From Alphaproteobacteria bacterium (GTDB lineage: Bacteria > Pseudomonadota > Alphaproteobacteria > Micropepsales > Micropepsaceae), in contig CANIAL010000013.1 in assembly GCA_947465395.1 (NCBI GenBank), positions 1 to 64,000 of the forward strand: a stretch of 64,000 nucleotides of DNA, read 5' to 3'. A model generated the notes under the pieces. It was not told where the DNA came from. It saw nothing but the letters and a program-made list of their open reading frames with translations, and made no database searches. Made by a program: the position numbers and the translations under genes. Below, in pieces: positions 47,245 through 49,813 of the stretch; position 1 is the stretch's first letter, and every line of letters begins with the position of its first letter.

Positions 47245-48333
47245 ATGACACGCGACGACATCCTTAAAGCGCTGGACAATGTGAGCGACCCGGTATCGGG
47301 CCGCAGCGTCGTGCAGCAGAACATGATCACCGGGCTGGTGTTGCGGGCCGCTGGTGACGCCTTTCATGTCGGCTTTGCGGTGGAAGTGCCCCCGGCCCAA
47401 GCGCGGGATGCCGAGCCCTTGCGCGCCGCTTGCGAAGCGGCGGTGAAGGCCATGCCCGGCGTGCTGTCGGTGACGGCGGTCCTGACCGCGCATCAGGGCG
47501 CACCACAATCCCAACAACGGCCGCAAACACCCGCGCCACATGGCGTCGCCGGTGTCGCCAACATCATCGCGGTGGCCAGCGGCAAGGGCGGGGTGGGCAA
47601 ATCCACCGTCGCCGTCAACCTGGCGCTGGGACTGAAAAGACTGGGCCTGAATGTGGGCTTGCTGGACGCCGATATCTATGGCCCAAGCCTGCCGCGCCTT
47701 TTGGGCATTTCACAAAAGCCGGACAGCGATGGAAAGAAGCTGAAGCCCATCGAGAAATTCGGCATCAAGACCATGTCCATCGGCTACCTGGTGTCGGAAG
47801 ACCAGGCCATGATCTGGCGCGGGCCGATGGTGCAGTCCGCGCTGACCCAGATGCTGAACGATGTGCTGTGGGCGCCACTTGACGTGCTGGTGCTGGACAT
47901 GCCGCCCGGCACGGGCGACGCGCAGCTTACCATCGCCCAGCGCGCGCCTTTGCGCGGGGCGGTGATCGTCTCCACGCCGCAGGACATCGCGCTGATGGAT
48001 GCGAAAAAGGCCGTCACCATGTTCAACAAGACCCAGGTGCCGGTGCTGGGCGTGGTGGAAAATATGAGCGTCTTTGTCTGCCCCGATTGCGGGCATGCCC
48101 ATCACATATTCGGTGAAGGCGGCGCGAGGGCGCTGGCGGAAAAATCGGCGCTACCGTTCCTGGGCGAGATCCCGCTGGTGGGGCGCATCCGCGAATTGTC
48201 GGACAGCGGCACACCGGTGATGGTGGAAGCGCCGGACGGGCCGGAGGCTTTGGCCTTCCTGGCGATCGCGGAAAAAGTGGCGGCGGCGCTGAAAACACCC
48301 ATGCGGGCCGCGCCCAGGATCACGATCACCTGA
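47245..48333 (+). CDS. mrp: Mrp/ApbC iron-sulfur cluster carrier ATPase
   Basis: 362 residues. An N-terminal DUF59/MIP18 domain (DNVSDPVSGRSVVQQNMITG), a His/Pro linker, then the P-loop IAVASGKGGVGKSTVAVNLA (113-121) and the cluster motif CPDCGHAHHIFG. LDMPPGTGDAQLTIAQ is the family Switch II. It carries Fe-S clusters to targets. It ends 6 bp from the convergent folA. Confidence 0.95.
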   Translation: MTRDDILKALDNVSDPVSGRSVVQQNMITGLVLRAAGDAFHVGFAVEVPPAQARDAEPLRAACEAAVKAMPGVLSVTAVLTAHQGAPQSQQRPQTPAPHGVAGVANIIAVASGKGGVGKSTVAVNLALGLKRLGLNVGLLDADIYGPSLPRLLGISQKPDSDGKKLKPIEKFGIKTMSIGYLVSEDQAMIWRGPMVQSALTQMLNDVLWAPLDVLVLDMPPGTGDAQLTIAQRAPLRGAVIVSTPQDIALMDAKKAVTMFNKTQVPVLGVVENMSVFVCPDCGHAHHIFGEGGARALAEKSALPFLGEIPLVGRIRELSDSGTPVMVEAPDGPEALAFLAIAEKVAAALKTPMRAAPRITIT

Positions 48334-48339
48334 ACTTTA

Positions 48340-48813
48340 TCAGCGAACGGGGACCAGACTCACAAAGCTGTAGGCCAGGCCTTCGGGCGTCGTGTGTTTT
48401 TCACGCGCAATCTCGCGCCAGTCATCGCGGTCGAAATTGAAAACCGCATCGCCAGCGAAATCGCCATGCACTTCGGTCAATTCCATGGCCGTGGCCCGGC
48501 CCAGCGCCGCGCCATAGATTTCCGCGCCGCCGATGACGCAGATATCGCCGCCGCCGGACAATGCGTCATTCATGCTGTGCGCCACACGCGCGCCATCGGC
48601 GTGCCAGCCCGCATCGCGCGTCACCACCACATTGTCACGGCCGGGCAGCGGCTTGCGCGGCAGGGAATCCCAGGTCTTGCGGCCCATCACGATGGTCTTG
48701 CCCAGGGTGAGCGCCTTGAACCGCTTGAGGTCATCGGAAATATGCCAGGGAATCGCGCCGTCTTTGCCGATCACGCCATTGCGGGCCGCAGCCAAAATCA
48801 ATGTGATGGACAT
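48340..48813 (-). CDS. folA: Dihydrofolate reductase
   Basis: 157 residues. MSITLILAAARNGVIGKDGA, PWHISDDLKRFKALTLGKTI, VMGRKTWDSLP and the IGGAEIYG motif are standard DHFR. It reduces dihydrofolate with NADPH. Start at 48813 (MSIT) fits the family; an upstream ATG at 48819 is in frame. No thymidylate synthase gene is adjacent. Confidence 0.93.
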   Translation of the reverse strand: MSITLILAAARNGVIGKDGAIPWHISDDLKRFKALTLGKTIVMGRKTWDSLPRKPLPGRDNVVVTRDAGWHADGARVAHSMNDALSGGGDICVIGGAEIYGAALGRATAMELTEVHGDFAGDAVFNFDRDDWREIAREKHTTPEGLAYSFVSLVPVR

Positions 48814-48912
48814 AATCAATCCCCAATTCGTTCAGCCCCGGTTCATGCCATAAACGCAAGATGGAACATCAGGGCCGCTTGTGGGTTTAACCCTGACTGA
48901 CAGGAGTACGCC

Positions 48913-49676
48913 ATGAAAAAATTGCTGGTTTCCACGGGCCTGGGCCTGCTGATGGCCTGTGCCGCGCCTGCGCTGGCCATGGCGCAGGAACATCGCGACG
49001 AACATTCCGACAGGCGCGGCGACCGCGACAACAATCATTCGCAGGCCGCACCGCAGCGCACCGCGCAGGCCCAGCCGCGCAGGCCCAGCCGCGCAATCCC
49101 CAGCCGGGCGAGCCCGGATTCAACCGCGGCAATGCCCCGCCCCCGGGTGTCAACGTGGCCCCTCCCGGCGCCGTGCCGCCGCCGCTGGGTGGACAACAGA
49201 ACGCCGCACCCGCACAGCAGAACCGCGGCAGCGCCCAAAACAACAACCGGAATGACAACAACCGGAACAACGACTTCAACAACAACAACAATCGCGGCAA
49301 CAACAATTTCGGCAACAATAACCGCGGCAATAACAATTTCGGCAACAACAACAATAACAACCGCAACACCCGCTTCAACAGCCGTTTCCGCAGCCAGCCG
49401 AACTTCAGCAGCATGCGTCGCAACTTCACGGCGCCCCGGCATTATCGGGCCGGGAATTACAACCGCCCCCGGGGCTGGTATTCGCATCGCTGGACGTTCG
49501 GCGAATTCCTGCCGGTTGCCTTCTATGCCAACAATTACTGGCTGGGCGATTACCAGCGTTATGGCCTGATGCCGCCGCCCTATGGCACCGTCTGGGTGCG
49601 GGTGGACAATGACGCCCTGCTGATTGACGAGGATGACGGCGAGGTCATCCAGGTCGCCTATGACGTCTTTTACTGA
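48913..49676 (+). pseudogene. RcnB-type periplasmic protein gene, frameshifted by a 14-bp tandem duplication
   Basis: The 5' part (signal MKKLLVSTGLGLLMACAAPA, then EHRDEHSDRRGDRDNN) and the 3' part (GVNVAPPGAVPPPLGGQQN, an Asn-rich tract, then the RcnB domain GWYSHRWTFGEFLPVAFYAN to EVIQVAYDVFY) lie in different frames. They switch exactly at a perfect 14-bp repeat (gcgcaggcccagcc at 49063-49076 and 49077-49090). Deleting one copy gives a continuous 249-residue protein. RcnB is a periplasmic Ni/Co homeostasis protein in E. coli; this relation is by domain only. Real, phase-variable or assembly-derived are all possible. Confidence 0.85.
49063..49090 (+). repeat. 14-bp perfect tandem duplication
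   Basis: gcgcaggcccagcc occurs twice in a row, followed by a partial third gcgca (49091-49095). The unit is not a multiple of three and breaks the RcnB-type reading frame. Confidence 0.9.
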
Positions 49677-49813
49677 CGCCATTTGGGCGCGATTCGCGGC
49701 GATGTGATGGGCCATTTTTAGGCCTATCCATCGCCGCGGCGTTGCTATAAATGGTCACCGTGCCCGTGGACTTCCTACGGTGCTCCGCAAGAAATCCGGG
49801 TACGGAATTTGAC

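Follow-up and report, generated by a model that had tools for sequence, protein, structure and literature searches.

In E. coli, RcnB is a periplasmic protein essential for nickel and cobalt levels (so the title of a work in the reference list of PMC7055735 has it), and the YohN/RcnB domain is represented by Pfam family PF11776 and by PDB entry 2l1s, which was deposited as yohN. Two further systems concern duplications rather than domains. In the capsule genes of Streptococcus pneumoniae, spontaneous tandem duplications have been reported together with their reversal and with phase variation (Waite et al. 2001, 2003, as cited in PMC4243769), and PMC13207564 describes a microhomology-mediated tandem duplication in the fungal gene ssp1.

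The gene considered here, found within a stretch of 64,000 nucleotides that we refer to throughout as the window, has a domain match to YohN/RcnB at 52.5-55.5 bits, but differs from it in having a long Asn/Gly/Gln-rich linker, in being broken and in sitting in a draft genome without a match to RcnA or RcnR. Judging by what PMC4243769 relays of the capsule genes, the likeness is that an exact duplication within an ORF stops function and is, in principle, removable; unlike those genes, the window lineage is known in one state only, and its gene has been lost repeatedly within the genus. With ssp1 it shares two short identical words that flank the duplicated segment, to leave two units and one extra word; ssp1, however, belongs to a fungal system with its own repair background. 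On the analysis below, we consider it likely that the duplication has recently turned a dispensable RcnB gene into a null allele, the gene being one that is predicted to encode an exported protein and that has been lost several times in the genus.

A gene divided at a 14-bp tandem array

The gene order in the window is mrp, folA (minus strand), the RcnB-domain gene and purA, where the three neighbours are, from their sequence, what we take to be Mrp, FolA and PurA. The features needed for the argument are as follows.

47245..48333, plus strand: Mrp-like ATPase, conserved neighbour
48340..48819, minus strand: folA-like dihydrofolate reductase, conserved upstream neighbour
48902..48906, plus strand: AGGAG, Shine-Dalgarno-like sequence 6 bp 5' of ATG 48913
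48913..49569, plus strand: ATG-opened frame of 218 aa, with a signal-peptide-like start (by eye) and linker, and no RcnB domain
49061..49095, plus strand: 14-bp repeat in perfect tandem, with full units at 49061-49074 and 49075-49088 and a 7-bp remainder at 49089-49095
49155..49676, plus strand: RcnB half of 173 aa, in another frame, first start codon GTG 49155
49500..49652, plus strand: PF11776 (RcnB) domain, covering profile positions 1-51 of 51 at 55.5 bits
49814..51103, plus strand: purA-like adenylosuccinate synthetase, conserved downstream neighbour

The signal-like start and the RcnB domain lie in different frames, so that the domain has no signal peptide in frame with it. Up to the array, the 218-aa frame encodes the original linker; beyond that point its residues are out-of-frame and Thr/Ala-rich, and a Pfam search with this ORF gave no match. 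The 173-aa half comprises an Asn/Gly-rich linker and the RcnB domain, and neither a ribosome site nor a signal peptide is evident by eye at its GTG. Neither ORF was matched in a search of NCBIfam. Third-position GC changes frame at the same place: 5' of the array it is highest in the first frame (0.76, against 0.71 and 0.48 in the others), and 3' of the array in the second (0.81, against 0.57 and 0.44). No further stops were seen in either half. The Asn/Gly-rich linker at 49255-49354 is itself an imperfect repeat with a period of 30 bp (and 15 bp), both of which are frame-keeping lengths.

The array spans 35 bp (2.5 copies), and it is here that the change of frame between the two halves of the gene falls. 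From 48913 to 49676 there are 764 bp, which leave a remainder of 2 on division by three, and 764 - 14 is divisible by three. The initial annotation had described two halves in different frames that meet at a 14-bp duplication, a description borne out by the ORFs, by third-position GC and by alignment to an intact relative (P0002, see below); the two copies it recognised are the 49061-49095 array read in another register, and the same arithmetic upholds its statement that one copy less restores a single frame. The partial third unit, CCGCGCA at 49089-49095, repeats the first 7 bases of the unit, such that the duplicated segment has the short identical words at its ends that go with a microhomology-mediated tandem duplication.

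Eight perfect tandem duplications with a period of 7-60 are present in the 64-kb window, and a period of at least 10 occurs only in the array of the RcnB gene. Of 20 sequences randomised under a second-order Markov model, 4 also contained a duplication of such a period; a matched run of at least 14 was seen in none of the 20, and the run in the window array is 21. A 31-bp stretch of DNA spanning the array, sought as an exact pattern, had no match in genome_contigs and none in viral_contigs, sets that possibly do not include the window's own genome, and a search of genome_contigs for the 173-aa RcnB half gave 209 pattern matches, of which none was confirmed. Against the DNA of 69 genomes of the genus, the 381 bp around the array found a full-length match in the window alone, the remainder being pieces of 25-58 bp. 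A literature search joining RcnB with the alphaproteobacteria, or tandem duplication with phase variation, yielded nothing on the window gene by title or abstract, the organism's own literature being outside its scope.

Intact relatives and the RcnB domain

A protein search over 5.8 billion proteins gave 121 matches, the best 120 of which were examined; among the matches listed, P0002, with 244 aa, and P0003, with 241 aa, stand nearest, and each is a full-length protein. Residues 1-66 of P0002 align to 48913-49107 in the first frame (78% identical) and residues 40-244 to 49041-49673 in the other (90% identical), with the two alignments overlapping at the array, where the P0002 protein reads as a one-unit form. 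For residues 1-54 of the 218-aa frame, the match is 85% to P0002 and 79% to P0003. The latter lacks 14 residues at the array region, and this difference between P0002 and P0003 marks the linker as prone to insertions and deletions.

Among the RcnB loci of relatives (n=29), 26 are full-length single-frame genes and three are cut by contig ends. Seven of the 26, which are open by construction and whose signal peptides were picked by a simple rule, contain between them eight perfect tandem arrays, and every period is divisible by three. Because P0002 has the one-unit form and the relatives' arrays keep the frame, the two-unit state of the window gene is most likely derived and not ancestral. Relative to intact orthologs the frame is broken, as befits a null allele. 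The RcnB half remains close to P0002, with 88 of 93 residues matching in its last part and 65 of 73 aligned residues in the linker part; such good conservation is as expected after a recent break, and would equally fit a gene that is still used occasionally.

With the 173-aa ORF as query, PF11776 scores 52.5 bits against a curated cut-off of 25.9, which identifies the domain. We also considered a predicted model of P0002, that is, of the intact relative and not of the window gene. Confidence is low up to about residue 150 and is followed by a confident C-terminal domain (pLDDT 61 for the whole model; 82-94 in blocks from residue 161 onwards). The best PDB match of the model is 2l1s (E 1e-3, with a probability of 1.00 and an rmsd of 1.3 over 58 columns), which places it in the YohN/RcnB fold, and this is followed at E 0.15 by 4ew5, the C-terminal domain of CigR; by sequence, the match to 2l1s is weak (E 0.03-0.06). 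Neither RcnA-type NicO (PF03824) nor RcnR-type (PF02583) proteins found a match in the draft genome, which is 93.5% complete, and an E. coli-type Rcn system (RcnA and RcnR in one genome) is to that extent missing. Because of this, a nickel/cobalt role for the window gene is, as far as gene content can tell, only a domain label.

Fate of the gene between folA and purA

Across the 69 genomes of the genus, P0002 has a match in 58 and PurA in 68. The interval between folA and purA was surveyed in 28 of these genomes, namely 27 with a PurA at least 83% identical and G001, in which purA is split over contigs. An open RcnB frame is present in 19, where 'open' denotes a single frame that closes with the RcnB domain, with a signal peptide not visible in every case; two further genes are cut by contig ends, one is a pseudogene with three TAG codons, five intervals contain no gene, and the last of the 28 is the window allele. 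The syntenic gene is, then, broken or absent in 6 of 27 other close genomes, which marks it as dispensable.

The five genomes with no RcnB gene between folA and purA are G015, G036, G086, G091 and G092 (L072-L076); two of them have intervals of 208-218 bp, and the other three have intervals of 631-640 bp. In four of the five, P0002 finds no match anywhere in the genome. The fifth, G092, is counted as a loss and its gene could have moved, because a 35%-identical match to P0002 lies on another contig. When 120 RcnB relatives were used as queries for remnants in these five intervals, the sole match was to P0117 (in L074 and L075); this was rejected as an RcnB remnant, since it falls in a short non-RcnB stretch 5' of purA, and a looser cut-off adds a match in L072 within the same pre-purA stretch, which is common to genomes with and without RcnB. 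P0117 itself, a catalogued RcnB relative, departs from the RcnB frame shortly before the domain is complete and continues into the sequence ahead of purA; it is probably one more broken copy, or else the product of a sequencing error. In the window, the corresponding stretch (~49741-49770, directly before purA) reads tgctataaatggtcaccgtgcccg and is conserved in relatives whether or not they have the RcnB gene, possibly as a promoter or leader of purA.

In G088, which has a genome of 1.9 Mb, the syntenic RcnB gene (L069:1532-2206, minus strand) contains three internal in-frame TAG codons and is otherwise free of stops up to its end; compared with the relative in L029, two of them stand in place of glutamine and one in place of tyrosine. 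Recoding of TAG was considered for this genome and rejected, given that mrp and another adjoining gene end in TAG and that purA has no internal stop. Because these neighbouring genes end in TAG, the G088 gene looks like a pseudogene rather than a case of recoding. A match in G072 with two TGA codons was likewise rejected as a broken ortholog, as it belongs to a separate open ORF of 145 aa, in a stretch without folA or purA matches.

A tree built from PurA, FolA and Mrp suggests about five separate losses. Several of its nodes are weak (0.057, 0.155, 0.348 and 0.614), and if these are distrusted, the two gene-less pairs, G015 with G092 and G036 with G086, could go back to a single loss between them, which would reduce the number to four. 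Genomes with a loss are also smaller: corrected for completeness, the seven loss genomes measure 1.89-2.80 Mb and the 19 open-gene genomes 2.22-4.29 Mb (two-sided Mann-Whitney p = 0.0016, with kinship ignored, the two contig-cut genomes dropped and sizes rounded). The window genome, at 1.77 Mb and 93.5% complete, is the smallest among the 69, the others being taken as rounded figures. G025 and G006 retain an intact RcnB gene in genomes of 2.2 Mb, which argues that small size alone is not the cause of loss.

Origin of the window allele and alternative readings

Synthesising these observations, we propose a sequence of events for the window gene. The 7 bp left over behind the second unit imply a one-unit ancestor in which CCGCGCA would have occurred twice, 14 bp apart. 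Replication slippage between these two copies probably generated the 14-bp head-to-tail duplication in the linker, which would have placed the start and the RcnB half in separate frames and is likely to have silenced the gene. From the normal start, translation would yield a 218-aa product with no RcnB domain, and the RcnB half, if translated at all, would carry no signal peptide. The break in the frame by the duplication is directly visible, as is the broken or missing gene in several relatives; a slippage origin, loss of function and the recency of the break are what we infer from the sequence. Because the gene is broken or missing in other close genomes, which are mostly smaller ones, the window allele may well represent the first step of one more loss in the genus. 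If so, the locus offers a clean snapshot of early gene loss, comprising one duplication, probably templated by a 7-bp repeat, and no further stop as yet, with apparent later stages (nonsense codons, then absence) seen in relatives. The initial annotation had put forward a recent null allele as one of its options, and this is the reading that has fared best, being well supported by the one-unit form of P0002, by the lack of a further stop and by the proportion of close genomes in which the gene is gone or disrupted.

It had also raised an on/off switch, in which slippage would set the gene on (frame kept) or off (two units) at useful rates. The length of the unit, which lies inside an ORF and is not divisible by three, is a property of tandem-repeat phase-variable loci, the shifted copies share a perfect match of 21 bp, and the reversible in-ORF duplications that PMC4243769 cites for pneumococcal capsule genes offer a precedent. 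The array, however, has 2.5 units only, and searches with either half as query found no one-unit, full-length protein of the window lineage, albeit that assemblies would hide a minority allele. Moreover, other members of the genus have lost the same gene to nonsense mutation or lack it altogether, a pattern that suggests a dispensable gene and not a regulated switch; with no positive evidence in its favour, we judge such a switch improbable. Slippage could in principle undo the duplication exactly, given that the repeat is a perfect tandem one, and this admits a variant of the idea, namely an off state that is reversible for as long as the gene has not decayed as it has in G088, in which the array would let rare cells recover the gene and the locus would act as a slow switch in both directions. 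We give this variant just an outside chance; if true, a reversible off state would sit in the member of the genus with the smallest genome, where it would silence an RcnB-domain envelope protein.

The two-unit allele might instead still yield protein, through ribosomal frameshifting or a restart at the internal GTG. Between the array and 49569 both frames are open, and this long overlap leaves room for a shift; but the genes of relatives use one frame, no ribosome site is evident by eye before GTG 49155 and a restart product would have no signal peptide, so that we regard this as very unlikely. Just as implausible is an assembly or sequencing error that conceals a real genome with one unit. 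The genome is indeed a draft, in 17 contigs, yet the reading frames of the window's other genes are long and intact, and a 35-bp array is short relative to common read lengths and easily spanned. General frame noise was examined as a candidate and rejected, as the three inner gaps of >500 bp left by a first ORF pass hold ordinary open ORFs. The 173-aa half is, furthermore, a catalogued protein (P0001), as is expected of a gene caller when the upstream frame is broken, and its cluster counts three member sequences and 17 contigs, although the identity of the 173-aa form across all 17 is not visible from the cluster counts. The longest of these contigs, at 220,246 bp, exceeds the 68,242 bp of the window's own contig, and on the strength of this and of the contig count the broken form has most likely been assembled elsewhere too. 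The initial annotation's concern over an assembly error has, in consequence, lost most of its weight.

On the null-allele reading, annotation pipelines will list a 173-aa RcnB protein at this locus that is probably neither made nor exported. The same genome has a second RcnB-domain ORF, of 111 aa, on another contig (L001:1480-1815, minus strand), near a tRNA-Val at L001:1168-1242; we speculate that it may cover some function of the broken gene.
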